IMG/VR virus record: IMGVR_UViG_3300006332_000043
Coordinates: 1 to 23,574 of that record
Origin: a virus
Reading direction: 5' to 3' (one strand)
DNA: 23,574 bases
Shown piece by piece: positions 9,593 to 23,307 of this stretch. Numbering within the stretch: position 1 is the stretch's first letter; every line of letters begins with the position of its first letter. A program made the translations under genes and the position numbers. Under the pieces are notes generated by a model, which worked only from the letters and a program-made list of their open reading frames with translations, did no database searches and had not been told where the DNA came from.

Positions 9593-9799
9593 TTATTTCG
9601 ATTGGTCGTTCGACGACTCATCGTATTCTGCTGAATCTGAGCCATTATGGCAAGTCGTTTTTCGTTGTTTGAAAATCGTAATGTCTTCGGGAGCTTCCAC
9701 GCTAACAGTGACGGTTGACAAAGAGAGCTTGTCAACTTCCAGAAAAGCGCCACCTATTATGAGCTTGTCGTGTTCTTTTAAGCGTAATTTTAAAGGCAT
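9593..9799 (-). CDS. Small CsrA-like protein
   Basis: This 68-residue protein aligns by eye with CsrA/RsmA, the small dimeric RNA-binding regulator of translation. KLIIGGAFLEV matches the CsrA TLxIGDxIxV strand region, and VTVSVEAPEDITIFK matches VRIGVxAPxxVxVHR with a single-residue gap. The RNA-contact Arg of CsrA near the end of that strand is Lys here, and the usual N-terminal MLxLxR is MPLKLRL. After about residue 45 there is an acidic, Ser-rich tail instead of the CsrA C-terminal helix. Its ATG overlaps the end of the sulfotransferase gene by 10 bases, so translation is probably coupled. It is the last gene before the terminator. The alternative is an unrelated small beta-barrel protein. 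Confidence 0.65.
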   Translation of the reverse strand: MPLKLRLKEHDKLIIGGAFLEVDKLSLSTVTVSVEAPEDITIFKQRKTTCHNGSDSAEYDESSNDQSK

Positions 9800-10377
9800 T
9801 TGTAAATTGGAGCGACGTTGGGTCGCATCACATCATGTGCATATCCAAATAAACTGTCTTCGATCAAATCGCTGTATAGATTCGCCAGGTCAGCATCCGG
9901 TAATTGCGAAAAAACGGATCGCCAGTCATCACGCTCGGTGGTTGCTGCCTTAATCGTCGGGACTCTCTGAAAGACATCTCGTAGATCCGACCTAATTTTT
10001 TCAAGGCGAAAAGTGAAATCAAAAACGGTTTCGTCAGCCCATTTTGCAATAGACCAACTATGCCGCCAACCGAACGCGTGACGCTGATGGACGTATTCAA
10101 GCAGACTCAATGGTTTCTTTCTAGCCTCACTGCGTTGACGGTTATATTCGTCATAAAGTCCCAACAGCCGCTTATACGGATGACGCACGATAAGTGCTCG
10201 ACGATAATGCCTAAATTCATTCGGTATGGTCGCGATATGCCGAGACGATGTGTGACCGTTTTGTGTGCCTACGACCCAGTAGGCATTTCGTCTTGCGCAC
10301 AGTGCTTGGTGTAGATGCAAGCTGCCGGTTCGCGGAGCAGTCAAAACAACGAGTTTTTCATCAGGCAAAATAATCAT
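9790..10377 (-). CDS. Sulfotransferase-family protein (putative, PAPS-dependent)
   Basis: This 195-residue protein has a P-loop-like N-terminus, VVLTAPRTGSLHLHQAL (residues 10-26), that matches the 5'-phosphosulfate loop of PAPS-dependent sulfotransferases. It is followed by ALIVRHPYKRLLGLYDEY (61-78), matching the 3'-phosphate-binding motif with R65 and a downstream helix. The family moves a sulfuryl group from PAPS to sugars, lipids or proteins. It is shorter than many members, so the acceptor domain is small. No signal peptide is seen, so it would be cytoplasmic. It overlaps the SNase-like gene by 4 bases (ATGA) and the CsrA-like gene by 10. Modification of host surface glycans or of virion parts is a plausible use; the substrate is unknown. 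Confidence 0.72.
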   Translation of the reverse strand: MIILPDEKLVVLTAPRTGSLHLHQALCARRNAYWVVGTQNGHTSSRHIATIPNEFRHYRRALIVRHPYKRLLGLYDEYNRQRSEARKKPLSLLEYVHQRHAFGWRHSWSIAKWADETVFDFTFRLEKIRSDLRDVFQRVPTIKAATTERDDWRSVFSQLPDADLANLYSDLIEDSLFGYAHDVMRPNVAPIYKCL

Positions 10378-11381: not shown

Positions 11382-11818
11382 TTGGAATTCCTTCTCCCGT
11401 ATTCTGCGATTAGTAGTGCATCTGCCAACGCATGAGTCATCTTGATATGCGGAAACAGCTCCTGTGCCCTCGCCTTGTGATGGTTTTTCTTGACTGTTTT
11501 TGACCACTGCCGGTTTGTGAGTCCGTACTCCCGTTGCCAGGTCTGTGGTGTTACCGTTTCAAACGGAATGTAGTTAGCGACGAGCATCGCACGCAGCATG
11601 CCGTAATTGCGGCCAAACGAGAACATGCTCACCACACCCTGTCCTGGCATTGCGTGTACTTCTTCGATCAGGCAAAAGACTTTGTCACCCAGCGCCAGTT
11701 CCTCGAAGAGATCCTGCGTGTCCTTCTCTGTTTCCGGCATCTTCCATGCGTGCGCGTTACCGTTATCAAGAAGCGCGACTCCACCATTTTTTCCAGGGTC
11801 TATGCCAACGAATCGCAT
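11378..11818 (-). CDS. RuvC-like Holliday junction resolvase
   Basis: This 146-residue RNase H-fold nuclease would resolve branched DNA made during recombination and replication before packaging. The motifs are GIDPGKNGGVALLD (5-18) with catalytic D7, CLIEEVHAMPGQG (49-61) with E52/E53, SFGRNYGMLRAML (67-79), VTPQTWQRE (89-97) and HALADALLIAEYG (129-141) with D133. This is the pattern of phage RuvC-like resolvases, whose genes often sit near recT and replication genes as here. The start overlaps the end of the replication gene by 19 bases. The stop overlaps the next start by 4. Confidence 0.92.
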   Translation of the reverse strand: MRFVGIDPGKNGGVALLDNGNAHAWKMPETEKDTQDLFEELALGDKVFCLIEEVHAMPGQGVVSMFSFGRNYGMLRAMLVANYIPFETVTPQTWQREYGLTNRQWSKTVKKNHHKARAQELFPHIKMTHALADALLIAEYGRRNSK

Positions 11819-12681
11819 TGCAGTTCTCCCATTTGATTGCGAATCACTTCGGCCTCGTCACTTCGCCCCTCGCCGGCACGTTGTAATGTTTTGAGCTGCT
11901 GAAACAGCTCTGAGTATTTTTGCTGCGACAGTGTTTTCTCGGGTGGTGGAGAATACGATGCACCAGGTGCGTCAGGGTTTGTGACCCAGTCGTATGCCCC
12001 TTCGAGAATCTTGGTCACCGTGTCGCTGCGGATGAACCAATCGAACGTGGGAACGTAGCTCCCGTCTTTCCAGCACTTCAGCGGAAACTTAGTCAGTGCG
12101 GTCATTGCGTCAGTGAGCCAACTGTCATCGAGTGACTGCAACGAACGCTTGCGTTTATCTGTGAGCTTGCGGATCTTTCGCACGCCGCGAGTCTGATTCC
12201 ACTTGTCGAGTAGTTTGTCAAAACGAGAAACAGAAACTCGTTTCTTTTGGATTGGTTTGGATTGGCTTGGTTGGGCTTGGTTAATAGCGATTTTGCCCGA
12301 CATTTTGCTACCAGCGTCGACATCAGGCGTCTTGTCGACGACTGTCTGCGACACGGAGCGACGTTTATTGCGTTTAGCAATGCGGTCTTTGATATACTTT
12401 GGGGCGTGTTCACTCCAATCATGAATCGAGAGCCGGTGTTCATCGCAAACATCGACAAAACCAGACTCAATCAACGCTTCGATAAGTTTGTCAGACGAGT
12501 CAAAATACTCAAGATAGAGGCATATTTCATCGTTGGTGTATCGACCAATATTACCGTCATCCGCGTTGACAGCAGCGAAGTTAAATAGCGTCTCAAGAAT
12601 ACCAACAGCCTGCCACTTAGGTATTTGTAAACGGTGTTTTAGCTTCAAAGTTTTGACGTGATTCAAGCATTCGATTTTCAT
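11800..12681 (-). CDS. Phage replisome organiser/initiator-like protein
   Basis: This 293-residue protein has an N-terminal winged-helix-like region, KWQAVGILETLFNFAAVNADDGN (about 22-44), followed by YTNDEICLYLEYFDSSDKLIEAL and WSEHAPKYIKDRIAKRNKRR. This is the arrangement of phage replisome organisers that bind the origin and load the host helicase. A basic, disordered Ser/Gln/Lys linker follows (about 105-150). A C-terminal part (about 155-245, KWNQTRGVRKIRKLTDKRKR..W) recalls DnaD-like or helicase-loader regions. It lies between recT and ruvC. The start is weakly supported (GGATTGAATT before the ATG). The iterons of its origin, if any, were not identified within the gene. Confidence 0.8.
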   Translation of the reverse strand: MKIECLNHVKTLKLKHRLQIPKWQAVGILETLFNFAAVNADDGNIGRYTNDEICLYLEYFDSSDKLIEALIESGFVDVCDEHRLSIHDWSEHAPKYIKDRIAKRNKRRSVSQTVVDKTPDVDAGSKMSGKIAINQAQPSQSKPIQKKRVSVSRFDKLLDKWNQTRGVRKIRKLTDKRKRSLQSLDDSWLTDAMTALTKFPLKCWKDGSYVPTFDWFIRSDTVTKILEGAYDWVTNPDAPGASYSPPPEKTLSQQKYSELFQQLKTLQRAGEGRSDEAEVIRNQMGELQCDSLA

Positions 12682-12706
12682 AATTCAATCCGTTGTAAAA
12701 GGTGCG

Positions 12707-12735
12707 GCGGCGGTGCACACATCCACCACCGCCGC
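12707..12735 (-). terminator. GC-rich hairpin between recT and the replication gene
   Basis: A perfect 9-bp stem (GCGGCGGTG with CACCGCCGC, 11-base loop) fills most of the gap between two leftward genes. Read leftward it is followed by ACCTTTTAC, a weak U-tract. It may be a partial terminator, attenuator or mRNA-stabilising structure. Confidence 0.45.
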
Positions 12736-12747
12736 GCGTGAGTGTCC

Positions 12748-13506
12748 TTATTGAACTGACGCGTCTCCGACGCTGACTAATAACTCACGCTTATCTTCTG
12801 TGTCATAAATCGCTTGTAATTCCTGGTGGTCGAGCGGCTGCACCGAGCCATCATCTGAGAGCAACTGTCTACTGATACTCATCGGGACAAGGCCGGAATT
12901 AAGCAGGCTGCGTACAACCGTTTTAAGCGCCATCGTGTCGGGGCTGGTATTCCACGGGCTAGACTTTTTATCAGAGCCTTTGCTGTAGCGAGAGCGTATG
13001 ATCTCGATCTCTGACGCCGTCATGACCTTCCGAACTTTCTCACCATTTGTGAGCGTTACAATCACGTATGCATGTGTAATAGGTGAGTCACTCTCGGCAG
13101 TGGGTGAATGCACAATTTTCTCTTCATCACCAAGCGTGTATTCAAAATGGTCGCCTTCGCGAACAACGGCGGTGGAGATCTTTGCGACCTCGCCGGAACG
13201 TCGCGCAAGTGCGAGTAGCCCCTTATAGCCGATGACGAGCTTGACGTTATGCCCGTAGGGGATCATATATGCTTCACCGAGAAGCCCGTCAGGCCGCAGC
13301 CCGAGTTTGCAGCACTGTGCGATGGCGCTCCACAAGCTCGTCTGTTCGCATTCAAGCAGCGTCGGGTTAGTTTTAAACAGATTGATGAATACGCCTAGCA
13401 TCATGTCTGCATCGACGTGAGGCGGCATCAGACGCGACCACTGGTGTTGCGTCTCCTGCAGTAGTGTTGTTGTTTTCTTGATCGCCTGGTTCAGATTCAT
13501 GTTCAT
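12748..13506 (-). CDS. recT: RecT-family single-strand annealing protein
   Basis: RecT binds single-stranded DNA and anneals it to complementary strands, supporting phage recombination and concatemer formation. The 252-residue product has the family core: LWSAIAQCCKLGLRPDGLLGEAYMIPYGHNVKLVIGYKGLLALARRSG (about 62-109), then HAYVIVTLTNGEK and MALKTVVRSLL (about 205-215). Its length is typical. Its ATG overlaps the upstream stop by 4 bases (ATGA); GAGGG lies about 9 bases before it, and a second Met two codons later is possible. No RecE- or lambda-Exo-like partner nuclease is seen next to it. Confidence 0.95.
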   Translation of the reverse strand: MNMNLNQAIKKTTTLLQETQHQWSRLMPPHVDADMMLGVFINLFKTNPTLLECEQTSLWSAIAQCCKLGLRPDGLLGEAYMIPYGHNVKLVIGYKGLLALARRSGEVAKISTAVVREGDHFEYTLGDEEKIVHSPTAESDSPITHAYVIVTLTNGEKVRKVMTASEIEIIRSRYSKGSDKKSSPWNTSPDTMALKTVVRSLLNSGLVPMSISRQLLSDDGSVQPLDHQELQAIYDTEDKRELLVSVGDASVQ

Positions 13507-13792
13507 TTTGTCTTGCCCTCTCGTTTGACAAATTCGTTAAAAGCTGCTGAAAGCTTTTGTTGAAGTTCAACCACGCATCGTCGAAGCGTTTCACGATCCG
13601 TAGATAATCGGTTAGCATCGACATTTCGACTATGCCGAGCGTTCGGTTGTAGTACTTGAAATTCTTGACTCTTCCTGTTTTCCACATCGTGCGTGCTCTC
13701 AGATACCGTTCGCGTGAGGCCTCTGGCATCTGGTCGAGCGTTGCTTGACTCAGTTCCGCTGTCGTATCGTCGTAAAGATAAATTCTTCGCAT
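13373..13792 (-). CDS. Alternative overlapping frame (helical protein), uncertain
   Basis: This 139-codon frame starts with AAAGG about 4 bases before its ATG, inside the zinc-finger gene, and runs 134 bases into recT. Its first ~97 residues look like a normal protein (MRRIYLYDDTTAELSQATL, then helices with MLTDYLRIVKRFDDAW). They are more protein-like than the frame it overlaps. Its last ~40 residues, inside recT, look like shadow translation. Either this is the true frame of a gene with a frameshift near its end, or it is a chance open frame. Confidence 0.3.
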   Translation of the reverse strand: MRRIYLYDDTTAELSQATLDQMPEASRERYLRARTMWKTGRVKNFKYYNRTLGIVEMSMLTDYLRIVKRFDDAWLNFNKSFQQLLTNLSNERARQNEHESEPGDQENNNTTAGDATPVVASDAASRRCRHDARRIHQSV

Positions 13793-13892
13793 ATTGCCTT
13801 TTCATCTGCATGCGTGTTGAACACGCGAGGCAGACTGGAGTGTTAATGAGCGCGCCACAACCCTGACATCTGTGAGGGTCTATTTGGTTCAT
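13503..13892 (-). CDS. Small zinc-finger protein, frame uncertain in the middle
   Basis: This 129-residue frame starts with an ATG that overlaps the preceding stop by 4 bases (ATGA) and ends in a TGA that overlaps the recT ATG by 4 bases. Both junctions match the coupling used across this operon. The N-terminus HRCQGCGALINTPVCLACSTR (9-29) is a clear four-cysteine zinc ribbon. The C-terminus (about 98-129, ETLRRCVVELQQKLSAAFNE) is a plausible helix. The middle (about 37-95) is Ser/Arg/Asn-rich with few hydrophobic residues, while an overlapping frame there looks more protein-like. A compensated frameshift or true overlap is possible. Function is unknown, perhaps nucleic acid binding. Confidence 0.6.
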   Translation of the reverse strand: MNQIDPHRCQGCGALINTPVCLACSTRMQMKRQYAKNLSLRRYDSGTESSNARPDARGLTRTVSESTHDVENRKSQEFQVLQPNARHSRNVDANRLSTDRETLRRCVVELQQKLSAAFNEFVKREGKTK

Positions 13893-14098
13893 GTTTCAAA
13901 TTGAAAGTAAATGAGCCAGTTCGCGATCATGTCGTTCAGTCGACTATCGTTCGGCCCGTCAGGTGCTGGAAAAATCTGCAGTAGTGTTCGGTCGGATGCC
14001 TTCCCTGACTTGCGAGTATGATAAAGCCGTATCTGCCGGTCTTCGGGAAACCATAGGATCAAAAAGTCTTTTGAAAACTCTTGTGCATTTTTATTCAT
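13889..14098 (-). CDS. Small hypothetical protein
   Basis: This 69-residue protein is taken from the ATG at 14098 (MNKNAQEFSKDFLILWFPED), which has CAGGTG about 9 bases upstream. The same frame is open further upstream, but there it overlaps the DUF3310 gene and is its shadow. The product reads like a compact domain (DFLILWFPEDRQIRLYHTRK, then RTLLQIFPAPDG and a final helix WLIYFQFET). It has no motif I recognise. Its stop overlaps the zinc-finger gene start by 4 bases (ATGA), so the two are probably coupled. Confidence 0.62.
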   Translation of the reverse strand: MNKNAQEFSKDFLILWFPEDRQIRLYHTRKSGKASDRTLLQIFPAPDGPNDSRLNDMIANWLIYFQFET

Positions 14099-14186
14099 TG
14101 CAAAACACCTGCCCGACTTGCCTACCGTGGAAAGAAGAAGGACACTTTCTTCGGCAGGCAAATCGGCTGCACACGCAGGCTGTTGT

Positions 14187-14444
14187 TCACAGGTCTTCTT
14201 CTTCGAGTTGTGAGTAAATAGACTTCGCAAACTCGATGTAATGAATCGCTTTATCCAGGTCAGTAATCGCGGCCTGATGAGTACAACCTTTCTTGTCGTG
14301 CCGAAAAATGTACTTAGTCGCGTTAAACATGCAGGCATGTAGCGCGGCCTGATTCCCAAACATTTGACGGAACGCCTCGAAGCACTCAAGCTGACCTTCA
14401 TCACGCTTGTAATGACGGGGTGGTACTATTTCGTTAGGCTTCAT
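14187..14444 (-). CDS. DUF3310 family protein
   Basis: This 85-residue protein carries the DUF3310 pattern: PPRHYKRDEGQLECFEAF (8-25), then AALHACMFNATKYIFRHDKKG (33-53) and TDLDKAIHYIEFAKSIY (61-77). The domain is widespread in phages and was labelled a putative nucleotide kinase because it is found in T7 gp1.7-type proteins. A stand-alone copy of this size lacks a P-loop, so kinase activity by itself is doubtful. It has a short acidic tail (QLEEEDL). It sits in the early leftward operon, 12 bases after the acidic small protein, which fits a role in DNA metabolism. Confidence 0.88.
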   Translation of the reverse strand: MKPNEIVPPRHYKRDEGQLECFEAFRQMFGNQAALHACMFNATKYIFRHDKKGCTHQAAITDLDKAIHYIEFAKSIYSQLEEEDL

Positions 14445-14456
14445 CTAACAAGTAGC

Positions 14457-14693
14457 TCATTCGTCGTCTTTGTCATCCACATCAGCAGCTTCCTCGGCTA
14501 CTTCCGGTGCATCTTCAGCCGGTAACGCATCTTCAACCACTTCCACTTCCTCGACTGGAGCAGCGTCTTCGGTCACTATGTATCGCACACGCGTTTGCTT
14601 ACCAACTTTGCTAACGAGTTTTTCGCCAGGCGTTTCATCGATAAATGTTTGTGCATCGGCGTAGTTGTCAAAAAGTTTATCTTCCCAAGGCAT
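14457..14693 (-). CDS. Small acidic protein
   Basis: This 78-residue protein has a folded-looking N-terminal half (MPWEDKLFDNYADAQTFIDE, then GKQTRVRYIVTED) and an extremely acidic, Ala/Glu/Val-rich C-terminal tail (about 45-78) with few other residues. Such a tail can mimic DNA or interact with single-strand DNA-binding proteins, but no known family is recognised. AAAGGA lies about 8 bases before the ATG, which is 1 base after the previous stop. It is part of the early leftward operon. Confidence 0.75.
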   Translation of the reverse strand: MPWEDKLFDNYADAQTFIDETPGEKLVSKVGKQTRVRYIVTEDAAPVEEVEVVEDALPAEDAPEVAEEAADVDDKDDE

Positions 14694-14694
14694 G

Positions 14695-15018
14695 TTAGTT
14701 TCCTTTCAATTGACTTCTTGTAAAAAGTGTATATGCGCTTCGGCCGGAGAAAGAACACTTGCGTTTCTCGCCTCGAAAGACGCGCCCCTGCTGAATTAAT
14801 GAACTGATTCGTTTTTGAAGCTGGCCTCGGATGAAACCGTGCTCCGCTTCGAGTTCTGCAGCGGTGAGGCCTGGACTTGCAAGGATCAGGTTCAGCGCGA
14901 CAAGTTCCATGCGGCCGAGTGTGCCGGTTGTGTAAAGATCTGCCACGGCATCATGACTAGTATCAGGATCGCCACGACGAGACTGCGTTTTAGGATTTGT
15001 AAATAGACTTAGTTGCAT
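14695..15018 (-). CDS. Winged-helix DNA-binding protein
   Basis: This 107-residue protein begins MQLSLFTNPKTQSRRGDPDT, and the RRGDPDTSHDAV motif is typical of small phage winged-helix proteins. LVALNLILASPGLTAAELEAEHG and a recognition-helix-like QLQKRISSLIQQGRVFRG follow, with a wing KCSFSGRSAYTLF. It probably regulates early transcription or aids replication. The ATG at 15018 has AGGGGG about 7 bases upstream and overlaps the excisionase-like stop by 10 bases; longer upstream starts in this frame would lie inside that gene. It is the second gene of the leftward operon. Confidence 0.78.
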   Translation of the reverse strand: MQLSLFTNPKTQSRRGDPDTSHDAVADLYTTGTLGRMELVALNLILASPGLTAAELEAEHGFIRGQLQKRISSLIQQGRVFRGEKRKCSFSGRSAYTLFTRSQLKGN

Positions 15019-15239
15019 TGCTGACCCCCTGCACTGATATTTATGAACGCATCGAGATCCCGCCGCAGCACATACCACCGCCGTCCGAGTTTGTAGCCTT
15101 GCAGCTTGCCATCGCACACCCAGCCACGCACAGTCATGTAATGAAGGCTGAGCATACTGGCAATCTGATTGATCGAATATGAGTCCTGAATATCGGACAG
15201 AGTGACCTCGCCCATCGCGGTCTGTTTTTCTGTAAGCAT
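15009..15239 (-). CDS. Excisionase-family helix-turn-helix protein
   Basis: This 76-residue protein has the HTH_17/MerR-like layout of phage excisionases and small regulators. YSINQIASMLSLHYMTVRGW (about 21-40) is followed by VCDGKLQGYKLGRRWYVLRRDLDAFI (41-66), the typical G-x-L-x-x-x-K-x-G-x-x-W-x-V-x-x-x-D-L-x-x-F wing. GGAGGG lies about 8 bases before the ATG, the strongest ribosome-binding site of the operon. It is the first gene of the leftward early operon and faces away from int across the attachment region. It may act in prophage excision, early gene regulation, or both. Confidence 0.8.
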   Translation of the reverse strand: MLTEKQTAMGEVTLSDIQDSYSINQIASMLSLHYMTVRGWVCDGKLQGYKLGRRWYVLRRDLDAFINISAGGQQCN

Positions 15240-15410
15240 TTATTACCCTCCTTGTGATGTGTTTGTTCTATAAACCTATAAAGAGCTATACAAGTCTTTA
15301 GTTCTTATTTTCCAAAAATAGCGATCTGTTTATTGCCAAATATCAACGAGGCTTTATATTTATCTAATCCGATACAACTTTATTTAGTGTCCAAGTTAGG
15401 GGCGAACGGA
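15240..15410 (-). promoter_or_regulatory. Divergent control region before the leftward early operon
   Basis: This gap separates the leftward early operon from a rightward small gene. It carries TATAG/TATAAA boxes at about 10-base steps (15269-15291). Read leftward, a TTGTAT...TATAGA pair with ~15-base spacing could be a weak promoter. No repressor gene is adjacent. The assignment is tentative. Confidence 0.35.
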
Positions 15411-15650
15411 ATGCCACAGAAAAACATGACGCAGCTGAAACTCGATGCCCTCGACGCCGTTGCGGATGTGCTCAGAGCTTCTGCGGATGAGCTGGAGAAG
15501 ATCCGGCAGAAGGCTGACGCTCTGGAGGTGGATCATTTAGAAGTTGCCAATTTTGCCAACGCTACCGAGGCTGTAAGGCGCGTGCAAGTCTTTGTCAGCT
15601 CGGCTGATCAGGCTCTATTCGGCAAGAGGGTCGACGACTCAACTATGTGA
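15411..15650 (+). CDS. Small helical (coiled-coil) protein
   Basis: This 79-residue protein (MPQKNMTQLKLDALDAVADV...) is almost entirely helical with heptad-like spacing (DVLRASADELEKIRQKADAL, about 19-38), suggesting a coiled-coil dimer. The ATG at 15411 follows GGGGCGAACGG; the frame stays open back to a TTG at 15333, so a longer form cannot be excluded. It lies alone between the divergent excisionase-like gene and the attachment site. By position it could act in lysis-lysogeny control or recombination directionality, but no DNA-binding motif is visible. Function unknown. Confidence 0.55.
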   Translation: MPQKNMTQLKLDALDAVADVLRASADELEKIRQKADALEVDHLEVANFANATEAVRRVQVFVSSADQALFGKRVDDSTM

Positions 15651-15685
15651 TTTTTGCGGGGCAGTTTTGTGGCCTAGCTCACCCC

Positions 15686-15783
15686 TTACGGATTTACGGA
15701 TTATATTACGGATTATTTCTATAAACGCTTATAAACAGCACTAACAAGATCCGATTGACTTAGTAGTATATTATTTTACGGAT
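15686..15783 (+). repeat. TTACGGAT direct repeats, left arm
   Basis: Exact octamers lie at 15686-15693, 15694-15701 (directly adjacent), 15706-15713 and 15776-15783. They are candidate integrase arm-type binding sites. Confidence 0.85.
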
Positions 15784-15824
15784 GTGGCAGTTAAGCCTAC
15801 AAAACAAGGGTAAACGTTACATAA

Positions 15825-15865
15825 CGCGGGGTGGAGCAGCCCGGTAGCTCGCGAGGCTCATAACC
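15825..15865 (+). pseudogene. 5' half of an initiator tRNA (tRNA-fMet), CAT anticodon
   Basis: The segment matches tRNA-fMet positions 1-40 in order: acceptor CGCGGGG, TG, D-stem GAGC, D-loop AGCCCGGTA, GCTC, G, then anticodon stem CGAGG, loop CTCATAA with CAT, and CC. Next comes ACAACG, which cannot close the anticodon stem, and no T-arm or 3' half follows. It is therefore not a functional tRNA. It is best read as the phage copy of the host attachment site, with a crossover in or just after the anticodon loop. Confidence 0.85.
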
Positions 15866-15961
15866 ACAACGCTATAAAGCCCTGTTATTCTAAGTTTTGT
15901 CTGTTTTACGCATCATATAGCCCTTTTTCGGGTTATACCGCCGCATCCTTTTTGTTACCTT

Positions 15962-15979
15962 ATCCGTGTAATTACGGAT
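15962..15979. repeat. Inverted TTACGGAT pair, right arm
   Basis: ATCCGT (15962-15967) and TTACGGAT (15972-15979) face each other 20-40 bases before the int ATG. A further inverted copy (ATCCGTAA) lies at 17714-17721, just after int. These are candidate integrase-binding sites on the other side of the core and could also allow int autoregulation. Confidence 0.75.
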
Positions 15980-16000
15980 TTTATCAAGAAGGATATCAAA

Positions 16001-17509
16001 ATGAAGTGGCAAGTACCAGCAGAACCGAAGCATCACAAAAGCACTAATCGCGGCGTGATCTACGTGCCGCAAGCTGATCCGGCTGGCAACCCGATACGCC
16101 AAGCGAACGGCAAGTTAAAGTATAAAACTCACTACTTCAAAGGTGCGTACAAGTCTCAAGAGATGTGGGCAGACTTTGAGCAGTGGAAGCGTGAACGTGG
16201 CCTGATTGCCAGTGGTCACAACCCAGCGGCTATCAAATTCAATGACAATCTGAACGTCACGGTAGGCGAGCTTTTTGACGCCTACCGAGAAGCCAAAGCT
16301 GCCACACGCAATCCGGATGCCGATGACCGTGCCACAAAGCGGCGTGACAAACGCTATATTGCACAGCTCGACAATATTGGCCGGCTTATCGCCTTTCATG
16401 CAGCCCTGCCCTGTGACGAGTTTCTGAGTTCGATGCTCATCGACATTCAAGAGACGCTTGTGAAGCGTTTTGACAACTCGGCCAAAACCGTCCGCGACAA
16501 GATATGGTTCATACGTGACATGTTCAGATGGGGTGGGCAGCGGAATCTGTGCGATAAGAACATTTACCGCGAACTGCGCGAGGTGCAAAATCCCACAACC
16601 CGCACCGGCGCTCGTGGCCGCAAACGCCGAACAGCCCTCAATCACGCTGACATTAAGCGTATGATTGACGCAGCACCGCCAACACTCCGCACCATGCTCA
16701 TTCTGCAAGTCAACACAGGCATGAGAAGTGGCTCGCTGGTAGATCTCACTTGGGATCACATCGACAAGAGCTACTACGACAGCCACAACTGCTGGGTTTA
16801 TACGCCAGATGGTCACAAGACACAGGACGCCATCGGTGATCTGCATATCGTCATCGGATCTGAGGCGGTCGAGGCTCTCATGGAATATGAGAACATCCGC
16901 CCAGATCGCGGCCATCGCTTTATCTTCAATCCCAGAGCTGCCCACACCTATCCACGTTATCAGGCCAAGCTCAAAGCACACCAGTCGCGCAAACGCCCAG
17001 CACTTGACCGCCAGCATATCAGCTATGAGATATACAAACGGCTCAAGGAAGGCATGGCACACGGCCACGAGCTGGCAGCGATTCAGAAGCGTTATAACAG
17101 CTCGCTCCAGCGGCTTCGCAATGCAGGCTGCGACATTCAAATTATCGAGAAGTTTAGCACGACCCGTGAGCGAGTCTATGAGCTTGTGAGCTACAATCCA
17201 CCGGCTGACGACCGCCCGACATGGCTGAGCATCTTTGAGTCTATGAGCCAGCGTGAGATGTCACTGCGTAGTGATCAGTACAGTGACGCATCCTACCGCC
17301 TGGCAGCTCAGCGGCTGGCTAAGAAGCTCGGCATTGAAGGATTCCAGCCGCACCGCCTGAGACACCGACGAAACACGGATCTGGTGAGACTCGCAGGTAT
17401 TGATCAGGCACAAGCTGTGCTTGGTCATCTCACTCGCGAGATGACAGATAATTATGACACAGATGGCCGGCTGCAAATGGCTCTAGAAACCCAAAAACTC
17501 TACGGATAG
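16001..17509 (+). CDS. int: Tyrosine recombinase/integrase
   Basis: This 502-residue enzyme would join phage and host DNA by cutting and re-ligating strands through a phosphotyrosine. Catalytic residues can be read in the expected order. Arg I is R242 in NTGMRSGSLVDLTW, with a likely Lys at K273 (PDGHKTQ). H451 and R454 lie in PHRLRHRRNTD, His III is H476 in VLGH, and the nucleophile is Y485 in TDNYDT. An N-terminal region (about 80-200) provides the core-binding domain; the extreme N-terminus (about 1-60) is basic and may contact arm sites. An insert of about 100 residues (340-440) separates the catalytic motifs. AAGGA lies about 9 bases before the ATG. It sits directly next to the candidate attP. 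Confidence 0.96.
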   Translation: MKWQVPAEPKHHKSTNRGVIYVPQADPAGNPIRQANGKLKYKTHYFKGAYKSQEMWADFEQWKRERGLIASGHNPAAIKFNDNLNVTVGELFDAYREAKAATRNPDADDRATKRRDKRYIAQLDNIGRLIAFHAALPCDEFLSSMLIDIQETLVKRFDNSAKTVRDKIWFIRDMFRWGGQRNLCDKNIYRELREVQNPTTRTGARGRKRRTALNHADIKRMIDAAPPTLRTMLILQVNTGMRSGSLVDLTWDHIDKSYYDSHNCWVYTPDGHKTQDAIGDLHIVIGSEAVEALMEYENIRPDRGHRFIFNPRAAHTYPRYQAKLKAHQSRKRPALDRQHISYEIYKRLKEGMAHGHELAAIQKRYNSSLQRLRNAGCDIQIIEKFSTTRERVYELVSYNPPADDRPTWLSIFESMSQREMSLRSDQYSDASYRLAAQRLAKKLGIEGFQPHRLRHRRNTDLVRLAGIDQAQAVLGHLTREMTDNYDTDGRLQMALETQKLYG

Positions 17510-17721
17510 GAAACCGCCTTATATGCACCGTTACCGATTCGTTACCGTCCTAAAAAGGGGGGTATAGTTGCAACGCGTTATCTTTGTAGTAAAACGGTTA
17601 CAAAGGCTATGTGGTGTAGCGATTTTAATACTACACTCGGCTTACACACAACTAAACAATTAGGATGTAAAAGTTAGCTCTGCTAAAGGACGCATAACTA
17701 TCTTTTAAAATCCATCCGTAA
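17510..17721. other. Gap after int with GTTACCG repeats and an inverted arm site
   Basis: No convincing gene is present in this gap. GTTACCG occurs twice (17530 and 17542), and an inverted TTACGGAT copy ends at 17721, just before the next ATG. I see no clear terminator after int. Confidence 0.4.
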
Positions 17722-18030
17722 ATGACCACGAAAAAGATTATGCTGCACATCATTGAAGTAACCCGAAAAGACGGGTCAGAGACGTTTGTACGCTTATCAC
17801 TCGCAGAGGCTGTGAAGATCATCGAATACGAAGAAACATCCCAGCGAGTCGTAAACATTATTCATCGGATTGAAGTAATGCCGAGATCGATTAGCTACGA
17901 GGTAATTGACACGATTACCGATTGTTTGGAACGGCGACCTTTTCATATGTGGCAGCAAGACAATATCGCGAAGTCAGGTGACGCTGAAGACCCAACTGAA
18001 GCGTTAAATCACAAAGCCGGTACTACGTAG
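17722..18030 (+). CDS. Hypothetical protein
   Basis: This 102-residue protein begins MTTKKIMLHIIEVTRKDGSE and has a compact alpha/beta pattern (FVRLSLAEAVKIIEYEE, then VVNIIHRIEVMPRSISYEV) before a polar tail. No family is recognised. No Shine-Dalgarno precedes the ATG; ATCCGTAA, an inverted copy of the putative integrase arm site, abuts it instead. The start may lie at a later Met (residue 7). It is the first of three unknown genes between int and the head operon and does not look like a head gene. Confidence 0.55.
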   Translation: MTTKKIMLHIIEVTRKDGSETFVRLSLAEAVKIIEYEETSQRVVNIIHRIEVMPRSISYEVIDTITDCLERRPFHMWQQDNIAKSGDAEDPTEALNHKAGTT

Positions 18031-18087
18031 TAGCTCACAGCCGGCTAAAATGTACAACGTGTCGCTAACATAGGAGCAATCGACCTT

Positions 18088-18447
18088 ATGGTGAATTACG
18101 AAATTCCAGATGACCGTGGTTACCTCCCGCTGGGGCGGATGCATCCGGTGTTCGACAATCGAGAAGAATTCGTGTTCTATTGTGTTTTGATGGGCCAGGC
18201 CAATATTGAACCAGTGCGATTCCTCACACCTGCGCTTGACGAGATTATTCTTGAGCCAGGTTATATCCTTGAGCGTCCGCACGAGATCGCCTGGGGCTAC
18301 TCGGATAAAGACGTGACGTGGGTCGAAGAGATGATTGAAAAGCTCGTGGCGCACGAGCTGCTCGAAAGGACAATGGGAATCTTGCGACTCACGCGAATTG
18401 ACGACTACATTGTATATGACGAGCCGGAGAACCTACCCAACCCCTAA
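18088..18447 (+). CDS. Hypothetical protein, possible winged-helix C-terminus
   Basis: This 119-residue protein starts at an ATG with AGGAG about 11 bases upstream. It begins MVNYEIPDDRGYLPLGRMHP. Its C-terminal half (VTWVEEMIEKLVAHELLERT, then LRLTRIDDYIVYDEP) has the helix-helix-strand-strand order of a winged-helix domain, with a charged IDDYIVYDE edge. This suggests a small DNA-binding or regulatory protein, but no recognition motif stands out. It is 12 bases upstream of the next rightward gene and 57 bases after the previous one. No family is assigned. Confidence 0.7.
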   Translation: MVNYEIPDDRGYLPLGRMHPVFDNREEFVFYCVLMGQANIEPVRFLTPALDEIILEPGYILERPHEIAWGYSDKDVTWVEEMIEKLVAHELLERTMGILRLTRIDDYIVYDEPENLPNP

Positions 18448-18465
18448 CTAAAAAAAAGAGTGGCA

Positions 18466-18969
18466 ATGAGCAATGAAATCCTCGACGCAATCTGTGGTGA
18501 GATTGCTGTCTTAGAAGAGTTGATTGAAAACGGATCAAGCGACACATGGTATGAGCCGCTTGCCCTGCACTGTGAAAAACTCGAAGCCCACAAACGTGAG
18601 CTAGTCGCGAGTGAGCCATCGTGCGATAAACTCGGTGCATATCTGGCCTTTTGGTGTGGCACAATAACCGAGTCGATTCTCAGTGATGACTCACATTTCA
18701 TCACACAATACCTCAAACGGAAGATGCCTGAGCTTGCGAGTAAACGCTCGATAGGAATGCTCGTCTGTACTGGGAGTAATCCACTTAAAATATGCGAAAT
18801 TGAGCATGATAACGATTCTTTGATACCAGCCATCGCTAGCACAGATATCATGCGAGTGCGGCCACCCGCAGACGAGCGGCCAGGTTCACGAGAGCACGTT
18901 AACAAAGAGAAGGCACTTGCCTGGCTCAATAGTTGGAAGCTGTTTACTGAGCACCTTGCCGCTGAGTAA
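18466..18969 (+). CDS. Hypothetical protein
   Basis: This protein is 167 residues long from the ATG at 18466. A GTG two codons earlier (18460) is an alternative start; GAGTGG overlaps it and could serve the ATG as Shine-Dalgarno. The N-terminal half is helical and acidic (NEILDAICGEIAVLEELIEN), with LALHCEKLEAHKRELVASEP resembling a small-molecule or protein-binding helical bundle. The C-terminal half is mixed, with a segment of RPPADERPGSREHV before a final helix (ALAWLNSWKLFTEHLA). No family is recognised. It directly precedes the repeat array that leads the head operon. Confidence 0.7.
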   Translation: MSNEILDAICGEIAVLEELIENGSSDTWYEPLALHCEKLEAHKRELVASEPSCDKLGAYLAFWCGTITESILSDDSHFITQYLKRKMPELASKRSIGMLVCTGSNPLKICEIEHDNDSLIPAIASTDIMRVRPPADERPGSREHVNKEKALAWLNSWKLFTEHLAAE

Positions 18970-18973
18970 ACGC

Positions 18974-19156
18974 TCTATTTCTGGTATTTTTGCCCCCCCT
19001 ATATCTGCGCAACTAATTTCGGTATTTTGCGCCACTCCGCGCGAGACAAACGCTCTATTTCTGGTATTTTTGCCCCGCCTCTATAGCTGCGCAACTAATT
19101 TCTGCATTATGCGCCACTGCCTGTCAGCAACCGTCTATTTCTGGTATTTTTGCCCC
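18974..19156. repeat. Iteron-like array, ~40-bp period, before the head operon
   Basis: A 23-bp element (TCTATTTCTGGTATTTTT followed by GCCCC) is exact at 18974-18996, 19054-19076 and 19134-19156, an 80-bp period. Diverged versions (CTAATTTCGGTATTTTGCGC and CTAATTTCTGCATTATGCGC) lie midway at 19013 and 19095, so five related boxes step by about 38-42 bases. The array fills the gap before the gpW-like gene, where lambda-type phages carry cos and the small terminase. It is a candidate packaging, replication or regulatory site. Confidence 0.88.
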
Positions 19157-19239
19157 CTCACCACTGCCCCGAAAAATAATAATTCCTTAGGCATTTTCTT
19201 ATGCCAGAGAGAGCGGGCTGATTTCTCAAAATAGGCTCT

Positions 19240-19491
19240 ATGCCTACAAATGTTACTCGAAGTGATGCTGCGCAAAGCTCTCCAAGTTTTGCTGAACAGA
19301 TGGTTGCCAAACTGCAGGGCGAAGTACTTGCAGGGTCTGGCGGCGTTCGCTCAACGACTGTCGACGGCGTCAGCGTCGAAACGAACCGCAGTGAAATGCT
19401 GCGCGAACTCAGATACTGGCAGAAAGTTGTCGCGAGAGAAAAGAATACGCAGCCGCTTTCCTTAAATGTGGATCTCTCTGATGGCCCGTGA
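19240..19491 (+). CDS. gpW-like head-tail joining protein
   Basis: This 83-residue protein fits the small lambda gpW-type joiner by size, position and pattern. A helical N-terminus with SFAEQMVAKLQGEVL is followed by a short hairpin (RSTTVDGVSVETNRSE) and a helix (MLRELRYWQKVVAREKN), close to the YxxxxVTxxSLxDLRREIxYW form. gpW plugs the portal vertex after DNA packaging and links head to tail. The gene lies directly before the portal, as in lambda, and overlaps it. Only a weak AGG precedes the ATG. Family membership is by pattern and position, so moderate confidence. Confidence 0.7.
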   Translation: MPTNVTRSDAAQSSPSFAEQMVAKLQGEVLAGSGGVRSTTVDGVSVETNRSEMLRELRYWQKVVAREKNTQPLSLNVDLSDGP

Positions 19492-20872
19492 AACAAACTT
19501 GAGTTACGACGCGAGCGTATCAAGTCAAAAACGTCGATCCCCGTCGTCGCGACTTAAAAGCGTTGATCAGATTCTCTCGCCAACGCGAAGAAAGCAACTG
19601 GTCAGTAACGCGAGAGATCTGCAGCAGAACTTTTCCATCTGCGCGTGGGCAATTCGCAGGCATCTGGATTATGTCACGCGTTTTACCTTTGAGCCGGATA
19701 CCGGCGATACGGGTCTTGATCGTGAGCTACAGTCAATCGTCGAATGGTATTCCAGGCCGGAAAACTGTGATGTCACTGGCCGGCATTCACTCGCCAGGCT
19801 CATGCGGCTGGCCGAGGAACGACGCACCGTGGATGGCGATATCTTCTTAGTGAAGATGAAAAGTGGACATCTTCAGCCAATTGAAAGTGACCGTGTCCGA
19901 AATCCTGACAAGATCTCACAAAAAGACACGTGGGTACATGGTTTAAAACTCAACCGAGCCGGCAAAACAGTACGCGTTGGCGTCTGGGGTCGCGACGGTT
20001 CAGGTGGTTACCAGTTTCAGCGGACCGTCAACGCTCGCTCGGTCCTGCAACTGGCATATTTTGAGCGGTTTGATCAGGTACGTGGCGTATCGCCACTGGC
20101 AAGTGCGATTAACACGTATCGAGATTTGTACGAAGGTTTTGATTATGCGCTAGCCAAGCTCAAGATCTCTCAGATGTTTGGGCTTGTGCTATCCCGCGAA
20201 GGCTCTGAAGCCTGGGGCGATGTGACGGCCGATGGAGACGGCACTGGCTATAAGGTCGATTTCGGTAAAGGGCCGGTCATGCTCGATCTCGATCCAGGCG
20301 ACAAAGCTGAGATTATTGAAAGTAAGAATCCGTCGAACGAATTCCAGACGTTTACTCAGCAGATGATCGGGATCGCACTTAAAAGTCTCGATCTACCTTA
20401 TTCATTTTTCAGCGAAGACTTCACCAACTTCTTTGGATCACGGTCAGCTTTCATTCATTACGAAAAAGCGGCTAAGCGTAAACGAAAAGATCTGGCAGAT
20501 ATGCTCGACAAAATAACCGCCTGGCGGCTGCGGTTATTTGTGGCCGATGGCACGCTGCGTCTGCCTCGCGGCATGAACGTCGGTAGTCTGCGCTGGAGCT
20601 GGATCAGCGACGGCACACCTTGGTGGAATCCGATGCAGGAAATCACCGCTGATATTGCTGCCATCAACGCCGGTTTGAAAACACGCACACAAATCGTTCG
20701 TGAACGTCACGGTAAAGATTTCAAAGACATCGTCGACACACTAGCCGATGAGCAGGCGTACATGAACGAGCGGGGTGTCGCGATGGATTCCAGTGGAATC
20801 GTGACCCCCATTAGCGATGAAATTCTAGAGCGTGAAGCAGCACGCGAAGCACTTGAAACGGATGAGGACTAA
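19481..20872 (+). CDS. Phage portal protein, lambda B type
   Basis: This 463-residue portal protein forms the dodecameric ring at the unique capsid vertex through which DNA passes. Recognisable stretches are RRKQLVSNARDLQQN, then ICAWAIRRHLDYVTR..F.PDTGD, LARLMRLAEERRTVDGDIFL and HVQPIESDRVR-like text (HLQPIESDRVRNP). Later come VLQLAYFERFDQVRGVSPLA, YEGFDYALAKLKISQMFGLV and LDLDPGDKAEIIESKNPSNEF. These are the standard order of lambda-type portals. The ATG at 19481 overlaps the end of the gpW-like gene by 11 bases; an in-frame ATG at 19466 is an alternative start. The C-terminus is acidic. Confidence 0.95.
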   Translation: MARETNLSYDASVSSQKRRSPSSRLKSVDQILSPTRRKQLVSNARDLQQNFSICAWAIRRHLDYVTRFTFEPDTGDTGLDRELQSIVEWYSRPENCDVTGRHSLARLMRLAEERRTVDGDIFLVKMKSGHLQPIESDRVRNPDKISQKDTWVHGLKLNRAGKTVRVGVWGRDGSGGYQFQRTVNARSVLQLAYFERFDQVRGVSPLASAINTYRDLYEGFDYALAKLKISQMFGLVLSREGSEAWGDVTADGDGTGYKVDFGKGPVMLDLDPGDKAEIIESKNPSNEFQTFTQQMIGIALKSLDLPYSFFSEDFTNFFGSRSAFIHYEKAAKRKRKDLADMLDKITAWRLRLFVADGTLRLPRGMNVGSLRWSWISDGTPWWNPMQEITADIAAINAGLKTRTQIVRERHGKDFKDIVDTLADEQAYMNERGVAMDSSGIVTPISDEILEREAAREALETDED

Positions 20873-20876
20873 CCAA

Positions 20877-21989
20877 ATGGAACAACAAAACGTACCTGAA
20901 AAGGCGTTTACGCTCGCTACGAGCGACATCGAAATTACAGAGAGTGCCGACGAGAGTAGTGCAGCAACGCTCTACGACGTGCGGCTGCTGGCACGTAGCA
21001 GTGGATCAATCGAACACTGGTACTGGGGCAACCAGACGATTCACGACATGGACGGCATGCGTGTGGCCGAGAAAATTCCAATCGATTTTAATCACGACGT
21101 TGGAGAGGTCATCGGATACCTCGATTCATTCCAGGTCGAAAAAGAAGGACTCGTGGCTCGCGGCAAACTTGTCAGCTTTAGTGACGATGACCGCGCTGCA
21201 GAGGTCGCAAAAAAAAGCCGTGCCGGTATTCCGTGGCAGGCATCGATCAATTTCGGCGGTGACGGTATCTCCGTTGAGCGGATTTCCACAGAGGGCGAGT
21301 TCACGGTCAACAACCGCAAGTTCACCGGAGATGCGACGGTGATCAGGCAGTGGCCGCTGCGCGGTGTTGCCGTGACCCCCTACGGAGCAGACGAAAACAC
21401 CGACTCTATCGTTTTAACAAATCAAGGTGAACGCGTTATTAATCTCAAGGAGACAAATATGTCTGACGACCAAAACACAAACGAAGAACTTCAGGAAGTC
21501 GCTCAAAGCGAACTTGAGACGGTAGATGAGCTGGAAACAGACGCTGCCGAGGAAGCTCAGGCCGATGAGCAGCAGGTCGATGAGGTCTGTGAAAGTGATG
21601 ACGCCACCGAGCAGGACATCGAAGCCGCAGAGCCGGCTCTGGAAGCTGCCGCACTGAGTGCTGATGACGGACGCCGGTATATCGAGCTGTTTGGTGAGAT
21701 CGGAGCTGTGTGGTTCATCGACGGCAAATCGATTGCTGAATGCTACGCACTGAGCCTCGCTGAAATGACTGAGCTGGTTGCCGAGCTGACTGACGAAAAC
21801 GAAAAACTTCGTCAGGCTGTGACCGCTGACGCTGAGTCGAAGCCCCTTGCGTTTTCTGCTGCTGAAGATGCCGAGGTTCGTGACGCACGAGACCGTGCAG
21901 AACGCTTCAAGAAAAACGGCGTTTCAAATGATCTGGTAGCCCACCTGGCTGGCCGGATTGAAAAACAGCTCGAAACCAAATCCCTGTAG
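20877..21989 (+). CDS. Prohead protease with C-terminal scaffold domain
   Basis: This 370-residue protein starts at an ATG with GAGGA about 8 bases upstream. The N-terminal ~190 residues match HK97-type prohead proteases: IPIDFNHDVGEVIGYLDSFQ with the likely catalytic His (H73), then GLVARGKLVSFSDDD, SRAGIPWQASINFGG with the likely Ser (S123), and WPLRGVAVTPYGADEN. After M195 the sequence changes to a very acidic, helical, Glu/Ala-rich region typical of capsid scaffolds, ending in coiled-coil-like KNGVSNDLVAHLAGRIE. The enzyme matures the prohead by cutting scaffold and itself. An internal ribosome-binding site at the junction allows separate scaffold production. Confidence 0.9.
   Translation: MEQQNVPEKAFTLATSDIEITESADESSAATLYDVRLLARSSGSIEHWYWGNQTIHDMDGMRVAEKIPIDFNHDVGEVIGYLDSFQVEKEGLVARGKLVSFSDDDRAAEVAKKSRAGIPWQASINFGGDGISVERISTEGEFTVNNRKFTGDATVIRQWPLRGVAVTPYGADENTDSIVLTNQGERVINLKETNMSDDQNTNEELQEVAQSELETVDELETDAAEEAQADEQQVDEVCESDDATEQDIEAAEPALEAAALSADDGRRYIELFGEIGAVWFIDGKSIAECYALSLAEMTELVAELTDENEKLRQAVTADAESKPLAFSAAEDAEVRDARDRAERFKKNGVSNDLVAHLAGRIEKQLETKSL
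21459..21989 (+). CDS. Nested in-frame scaffold protein
   Basis: Inside the protease gene, in the same frame, AAGGAG (21447-21452) lies 6 bases before an ATG encoding MSDDQNTNEELQEVAQ. Translation here would give a 176-residue acidic, Glu/Ala-rich coiled-coil protein with the properties of a capsid scaffold. This is the arrangement of lambda C/Nu3, where the scaffold starts within the protease gene. The abundance ratio would be set by the two ribosome-binding sites. It is inferred from sequence alone and not independent of the parent gene. Confidence 0.7.
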   Translation: MSDDQNTNEELQEVAQSELETVDELETDAAEEAQADEQQVDEVCESDDATEQDIEAAEPALEAAALSADDGRRYIELFGEIGAVWFIDGKSIAECYALSLAEMTELVAELTDENEKLRQAVTADAESKPLAFSAAEDAEVRDARDRAERFKKNGVSNDLVAHLAGRIEKQLETKSL

Positions 21990-22023
21990 AAACACCCTTC
22001 CCTCCCGATAAGGAACTTTAAAA

Positions 22024-22941
22024 ATGGCTGACGATTATTATACAAGTGCACAACTGATTCAGTTCAACGAATCAGACCTTGAATTTGATGTGAGCGACGT
22101 GCTTAACGACGCTCCGGTTCTTGCTGCCCTGAGCGCATTTAGCGTGCCAGGTACGCAATTACTCTATATGAAGCAAACTGCAGCGCCGGCTAGTAATTTC
22201 CGACTTCTCAATGACGGCGTGGATAACGACGTGGCGACATACACCCAGGTCAGTGTTGATCTCGCCATTGCCGATGCGAGTTTTAACATCGATATTGCTG
22301 CCGCTGAAGGCTATCGCCTTGGCGCTGCTGCTTTCATCGCACTGCAAATGAGAAATCACATGCAGTCCATGATGGCATCAATCGAGGACGAAATTATCAA
22401 CGGTGGTCACACCAACGGGTTTGCATCACTCTCTGATGAACTTGATGCTGTTGCTGACGAAACCGTCATCTCAGCCGGCGGTACAACCGCTGACACAGGA
22501 TCGTCTGTATATCTCATCCGCAGTGGATTCAACGATACACAGGTTGCCTGGGGCAATGAAGGCGTGATCGAAGCCAAGGATACGACCATCGTGCGAACCA
22601 GCGGTTCAACGACTGGTACATTCCCTAGCTACTACACCGCCGTCACCGGCTACTGTGGTTTGATCTACGGTAGCAGCTACTCTGCCGGTCGTATCGCAAA
22701 CATTACCGAAGATTCCGGTAAAGGTTTGACCGATGCACTGATCGCTGAAGCACTGAGCAAATTCCCAGCCGGCCGTGGGCCGAACATGCTGGCGATGAAT
22801 CGTCGCTCACTGTTCCAACTGCAGAATTCGCGTACAGCCACCAATGCCACCGGCGCTCCAGCACCGTATCCGGCAGAGGCTTTCGGCGTGCCGATTATCG
22901 TCACTGATCAGATCTCATCAACTGAGGCACTGATTAGCTAA
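22024..22941 (+). CDS. Major capsid protein (HK97 fold)
   Basis: This 305-residue protein is the probable coat subunit. Patterns that fit phage major capsid proteins are DVLNDAPVLAALSAF (26-40), MKQTAAPASNFRLLNDG (49-65) and VSVDLAIADASFNIDIAAAEGY (77-98), a stretch typical of coat proteins of the gp7/P22-like type. Further on are SIEDEIINGG (118-127) and AYRLG/ALSKFPAGRGPNMLAMNRRSLFQLQ in the C-terminal half. It ends with EAFGVPIIVTDQI, a usual capsid C-terminal motif. AAGGAA lies about 8 bases before the ATG. It follows the protease/scaffold and precedes connector genes, the canonical head order. Confidence 0.9.
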   Translation: MADDYYTSAQLIQFNESDLEFDVSDVLNDAPVLAALSAFSVPGTQLLYMKQTAAPASNFRLLNDGVDNDVATYTQVSVDLAIADASFNIDIAAAEGYRLGAAAFIALQMRNHMQSMMASIEDEIINGGHTNGFASLSDELDAVADETVISAGGTTADTGSSVYLIRSGFNDTQVAWGNEGVIEAKDTTIVRTSGSTTGTFPSYYTAVTGYCGLIYGSSYSAGRIANITEDSGKGLTDALIAEALSKFPAGRGPNMLAMNRRSLFQLQNSRTATNATGAPAPYPAEAFGVPIIVTDQISSTEALIS

Positions 22942-23307
22942 ATGTCACTAGCCACGCACATCAGCTCGAACTTTAAAACGCTTCAGACCGCCGCCGGCGT
23001 AGAGATACGCTACACGCGCGGCGAGAGAAGTGTTTTGGTACGAGCCGTGCCTGGTGAAACGAATTTCGTCAGAAGCGATGGCGAAGGGTACATGGAAAGT
23101 TCAATTAGCCGGGACTTTATGTTTCCGGCCGATGATCTTGTCATTGGCGGTACTCCTGTACTTCCAGAGCGTGGAGATGTGATTACCGAGACGGTCGGCG
23201 GCGTGGAAACCACACGTCCAGTGACGCCGGCCGCCGGTGATCGCGTTTTCCGTTATTGCGACCCTTACCACCAGGTGCTTCGTGTTCACACTCGGGAGAC
23301 TGCTTAG
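22942..23307 (+). CDS. Head-tail connector-like protein
   Basis: This 121-residue protein starts immediately after the capsid stop (TAAATG), so translation is coupled. It has an ordered pattern of GVEIRYTRGERSVLVRAVPGETNF, then RDFMFPADDLVIGG, LPERGDVITET and a late VFRYCDPYHQVLRVHTRET. The layout IRYxRG...PGET...DFxxxADDL...P..GD.I...RYxD is one I associate with head-tail adaptor or completion proteins in phages of this sort. The exact family is not certain. Position just after the capsid and before another small structural gene supports a head-completion role. Confidence 0.72.
   Translation: MSLATHISSNFKTLQTAAGVEIRYTRGERSVLVRAVPGETNFVRSDGEGYMESSISRDFMFPADDLVIGGTPVLPERGDVITETVGGVETTRPVTPAAGDRVFRYCDPYHQVLRVHTRETA

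Follow-up and report, generated by a model that had tools for sequence, protein, structure and literature searches.

Our comparative analysis indicated that the window (the whole stretch of DNA analyzed, a complete IMG/VR record of 23,574 bases) very probably carries the attachment site (attP) of a planctomycete phage, in which arm sites, a core formed by the 5′ half of the initiator tRNA, and an adjacent integrase (Int) would recombine with the host initiator tRNA gene and yield a hybrid tRNA. The record includes phage genes for terminase, portal, head protein, RecT, and replication initiation, and its source is probably a marine temperate phage of Planctomycetes. The host order is probably Pirellulales or kin, as judged by the core match and by two contigs of a near relative in a Pirellulales MAG. 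Temperate phages of Planctomycetota are little described in the open-access papers searched; megablast and tblastn searches of INPHARED phages retrieved no relative of the window, and genome contigs searched with its integrase gave no match. Within the minus-strand gene cluster, positions 9790-10377 showed a weak match, just at the cut-off, to PF03567 (sulfotransferase family).

The core, CGCGGGGTGGAGCAGCCCGGTAGCTCGCGAGGCTCATAACC, spans 41 nt on the plus strand (15825-15865) and corresponds exactly to bases 1-41 of planctomycete initiator tRNA-fMet. These letters were found in at least 117 genome stretches, nearly all from Planctomycetota, as the first 41 bases of a complete initiator tRNA gene, which bears out the proposal in the initial annotation that an initiator tRNA half lies beside the integrase gene (int). 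Alignment with host tRNA-fMet genes held up to base 41 and then diverged, the hosts reading TCGAGGTCG (beginning TCGAGG) where the window reads ACAACGCTATAAAG (beginning ACAACG), so no intact tRNA extends past 15865. ARAGORN detected no complete tRNA gene in the window, a record that may be incomplete, and the phage thus carries the 5′ half rather than the 3′ half, as had been suggested, with the 3′ half absent. In genomes with two copies of the cores, the copies turned out to be complete tRNA genes and not halves. The best-placed of 222 INPHARED records in the core search carried complete tRNA-Met genes or unrelated matches, with no halves beside an integrase gene. The anticodon stem of planctomycete initiator tRNAs, seen by comparing window 15852-15868 with the hosts, is CGAGG/CCTCG; the usual bacterial initiator tRNA has three G-C pairs in this stem, one of which is swapped for A-U in planctomycetes.

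Assignment of this region as the putative attP of a tyrosine recombinase rests on comparison and was supported by ten other viral contigs, in which the same tRNA half immediately adjoins a homologous integrase (phmmer E, 1e-36 to 1e-144 for eight contigs; tblastn E, approximately 1e-44 for L201 and L202). Two of these, L201 and L202, were found via the portal protein alone, independently of att and int, and still fit the pattern. The eleven integrases formed one group (support, 100/98), apart from other Pirellulales integrases, in a maximum-likelihood tree, a result favored by the sampling since most members were found by core or integrase. The core was identical in L002, L069, and other phages whose flanks are unrelated, and in L125 int occupies the opposite side of the core. 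Metagenome assemblies can be chimeric, and contig L069 ends inside the inverted repeat pair described below; a chance, decayed, or chimeric tRNA fragment without a role would nevertheless have to recur beside homologous integrases in all these contigs despite their unrelated flanks, which leaves this explanation with a negligible probability. L069 was also considered as a prophage junction, with host-like DNA seemingly preceding the core, and was rejected as such: its remaining genes are phage genes, so the contig belongs to a variant phage that was binned with a Pirellulales MAG. A whole clade of related planctomycete phages built around a 5′-half initiator-tRNA attP is the new part of our finding, and the exact att match connects these contigs, from uncultivated marine phages, with Planctomycetota.

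The limits of identity between phages and hosts pointed to the position of strand exchange. Numbering tRNA bases from C1, with the anticodon loop at bases 33-39, host identity ended at base 39 in L201/L202, at base 41 in the window and five others, at approximately bases 44-45 in L128 and L129, and at approximately base 51 in L125. In the Pirellulales genome G405, a complete tRNA-fMet has a related integrase after it, and 11.6 kb away there is a displaced fragment that shows identity from base 33 to base 74; this island (L189:6841-18507) is an 11.6-kb 3′-type element at tRNA-fMet that displaced a 42-nt host 3′ fragment. Assuming the same crossover for both types, 5′-type identity up to base 39 and 3′-type identity from base 33 would place it most likely within the 7-bp anticodon loop, giving a putative overlap CTCATAA at 15857-15863 (plus strand; anticodon CAT at 15859-15861). 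The attP core is identical to part of a host tRNA gene, with the break at the anticodon loop, and the crossover proposed there by the initial annotation agrees with these limits. A 7-bp spacing is usual for this class of tyrosine integrases (PMC8371274). Identity was one-sided, reaching base 1 (32 nt 5′ of the loop) but stopping at bases 39-51 on the other side, which suggests that selection has maintained a working tRNA rather than an Int-binding sequence.

Alternatively, the half might be kept only as an Int recognition sequence, with another initiator tRNA gene rescuing the host or the phage supplying none, as in tRNA-dependent lysogeny. Such lysogeny exists in actinophages (PMC10865867), and promoter matches upstream of the half were no better than chance in the window, L002, L069, L122/L131, and L128. 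However, the actinophages share approximately 10 bp with their hosts and encode a full tRNA (PMC10865867), whereas here 41 bp are shared down to base 1 and the complete replacement tRNA that characterizes tRNA-dependent lysogeny was not found by ARAGORN in this possibly incomplete record. Moreover, core-site binding would need conservation symmetrical about the crossover, most genomes with the exact core sequence have one match each, and the octamer immediately preceding the half is similar to host tRNA leaders, ranking in the top 1.2% of 8-mers from the window. We consider a recognition-only role very unlikely and favor a half retained as part of a working tRNA.

The 502-residue tyrosine integrase (16001-17509, plus strand; PF00589 E, 3.9e-15; PHROG integrase) starts 135 bp downstream of the core. 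PF00589 was present in all eight members, and R242, K273, R454, H476, and Y485 were invariant in their alignment, providing the R, K, HxxR, H, Y catalytic domain by which tyrosine integrases are recognized. The AlphaFold model of Int (pLDDT, 83; pTM, 0.53) matched lambda Int, XerA, and integron integrases, with lambda Int among the top PDB matches. Residues ~335-400 (window 17000-17200) constitute an insertion in the catalytic domain between K273 and HxxR, which looks like a winged helix in the model; it was found in six of the eight aligned members and is missing from L122/L131.

The word TTACGGAT occurred six times in 23.6 kb (0.65 expected; 0 of 100 shuffles reached six), and rather than being common across the genome, all six copies adjoin the core and int. 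Four direct copies on one side of the core, an inverted pair on the other, and an inverted copy after int had been counted as arm sites. Three of the direct copies (15686, 15694, and 15706; 15686-15713, plus strand) form the int-distal arm, approximately 120-140 bp before the core, and three are found at the same distance in relatives; the fourth (15776-15783, plus strand) is missing from L002 and L069 and is probably not an arm site. The inverted pair (15962-15979), approximately 100 bp after the core, is present as the int-proximal arm, but only one of its members is a perfect TTACGGAT (15972-15979), the partner being the shorter inverted ATCCGT (15962-15967); the pair is kept in the same place and orientation in L002, L122/L131, L121/L123, L128, and L129. 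The copy after int (17714-17721, minus strand), without a counterpart in L002 or L003, is probably due to chance. With the nonconserved copies at 15776 and 17714 set aside, five of the seven sites counted originally are supported, three of them distal and two proximal.

When the window flanks were shuffled, a single 6- or 7-mer did equally well in ~1-3% of trials, so the window alone is suggestive and it is the relatives that settle the arm reading. Six of them (L121, L123, L122, L131, L128, and L129) have three copies of a 7-letter word ahead of the core, mostly near -150, -140, and -130, plus two on its other side (+87 to +119), a pattern equalled or bettered in no more than 1 of 200 shuffles. 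Three distal sites and one proximal site were found in L201/L202, so that three distal and one or two proximal sites of one word were seen in eight of the ten relatives having an integrase; the sister phage L200 has three plus two. This plan, with three distal sites near -150/-140/-130 and one or two proximal sites near +90 to +130, recurs in at least five lineages, and the arm-core-arm arrangement originally proposed thus holds against the ten viral contigs with the same core. The word itself is lineage-specific: GTGCACAA or TTGCACAA; GTACATC or GTACAAC; ACACAAA or ACGCAAA; and GGTGTCC. It is altered jointly in all five copies within the pairs L121/L123, L122/L131, and L128/L129. In L002 and L069, the distal word is changed (TTACTGAT and TTACTTAC) while the proximal pair is unchanged, indicating that not all arms co-vary. 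At L069:115-330, the right arm is that of the window, whereas the left arm differs and has TTACTTAC repeats, as might result from an exchange on that side.

In lambda, arm binding falls to the N-terminal 70 residues of Int. Int substitutions were concentrated in this part in two of the three arm-word pairs and between the window and L002 (p = 0.04, 0.0015, and 0.0013), while L128/L129 showed the reverse, the N-terminus being the more conserved part. From these sequences, variation of the Int N-terminus appears to go along with the arm word in three close pairs but not in L128/L129, and only partly so for window/L002, whose arms changed in part. With arm sites on both sides of the core next to int, the region has the makeup of a lambda-type (heterobivalent) attP, and the TTACGGAT sites are putative arm sites for Int. 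The repeats might instead be operators for a repressor or excisionase: an HTH_17 protein, a candidate excisionase, is encoded nearby (15009-15239, minus strand; PF12728 E, 5.5e-12; weak match to excisionase PHROG 66), the proximal pair, immediately ahead of int, would be suitably placed to repress that gene, and in L002 and L069 the three distal copies no longer match the proximal ones. Operators would not, however, readily account for a 3+2 split, as in lambda attP, that is found at fixed distances in at least five lineages with differing words, or for the greatest variability of Int lying at its N-terminus in three close pairs. We regard operators in place of arm sites as unlikely, and the two roles of TTACGGAT are not exclusive.

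Under the arm-site reading, a lambda-type Int would connect the core with five arm sites, three distal and two proximal, and recombine attP with the initiator tRNA gene of the host, the 7-bp anticodon loop being the most likely place. One end of the integrated element would then hold a complete tRNA, a hybrid of phage 5′ half and host 3′ half because the phage carries bases 1-41, read from upstream phage DNA; at the other end, the displaced 5′ half would remain with the promoter of the host, both pointing into int ~135 bp downstream. Int binding, excision, promoter hand-over, and an effect on int expression are predicted from the demonstrated parts, their conservation, and the identity limits. 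Given this geometry, promoter replacement is necessary if integration occurs. A -10-like TATAAT or TACAAT was located 19-20 nt upstream of the half in L121/L123, L125, and L129 (0 to 4% of shuffles as good). Among 199 genomes from the family to which the Pirellulales MAG belongs, none had an integrated copy, and 397 Pirellulales yielded distant integrases only. The genomes searched, in collections covering few relatives of the host, contained no rebuilt tRNA with a displaced 5′ fragment; the MAG in which L069 was binned has no recognizable tRNA-fMet, which makes the host test there empty.

The interval between the core and int contains a hairpin, TATAGCCC-TTTTTC-GGGTTATA (15916-15937, plus strand), predicted by RNA folding and kept in L002. 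The RNA of this interval had a fold z of only -1.2 in the window, with no terminator by pattern, and folded better than shuffles in L123, L128, L129, and L131 (z, -2.3 to -4.5). The hairpin may possibly act as an attenuator of int in the integrated state. A lysogeny switch used by the clade, in which the promoter exchange forced by a 5′-half attP lets a phage promoter run the initiator tRNA and the host tRNA promoter run int, with RNA structure damping int, is a tentative and rather doubtful extension. If true, loss or silencing of the prophage end would deprive the host of its start tRNA, and promoter hand-over, if it occurs, would mean that an essential translation gene of lysogens is run from prophage DNA.

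A single close relative, the sister phage L200, has another target. It is 92-97% identical to the window at 11588-15022 and 18056-22961, and the att-int cassette between these blocks has been exchanged (L200:3668-6233 vs. window 15022-18056), replacing fMet with Ser(GCT) while keeping the 5′-half mode. The L200 cassette comprises a distant integrase, a tRNA-Ser(GCT) 5′ half that is exact in several Pirellulales and ends right after the loop TTGCTAA, and 3+2 arms. Related phages integrating elsewhere would have spoken against the proposed attP, but L200 does not do so: the whole cassette was swapped for one that again has a 5′ half. Together, these elements offer a natural series for att evolution, with arm words matched to Int N-termini, one tRNA gene used by both a 5′-type and a 3′-type element whose inferred crossovers coincide, and a cassette exchange that changed the tRNA target.

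Among tRNA-targeted islands catalogued by Islander, 159 of 3919 have a 5′ fragment, the element holding the 5′ part and displacing the host 5′ fragment as proposed here (PMC4383910); our case differs in being a Planctomycetes phage clade built around the initiator tRNA, with no integrated example seen. The pTN3-like archaeal integrases likewise target a tRNA 5′ half, share 41 bp with the host as the window does, and part the rebuilt tRNA from its own promoter, but in pTN3 att lies inside int and integration splits the gene, whereas here int is whole and beside att (PMC5495485, PMC8371274). The Islander counts and the pTN3-like integrases show that the 5′-half mode is known, if uncommon; we found no description of it for planctomycete phages in the open-access papers searched. 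The predicted reading of int from the host tRNA promoter once integrated, with structured RNA before int, resembles promoter switching in ICEKp1 (PMC13023037), although ICEKp1 leaves a complete tRNA ahead of int and the phage would leave no more than a half.

The closest overall parallel is lambda attP and its heterobivalent integrases, which likewise have three sites on the int-distal arm, two on the int-proximal arm, and the core in the middle; the distal arm of the window may be likened to the P′ arm and the proximal arm to the P arm. Like lambda Int, the window integrase has N-terminal arm-binding-like, core-binding, and catalytic parts, and of the two, only the window Int has the winged-helix-like insertion in its catalytic domain. 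Unlike in lambda, the core here is a tRNA half and the proximal sites form an inverted pair.
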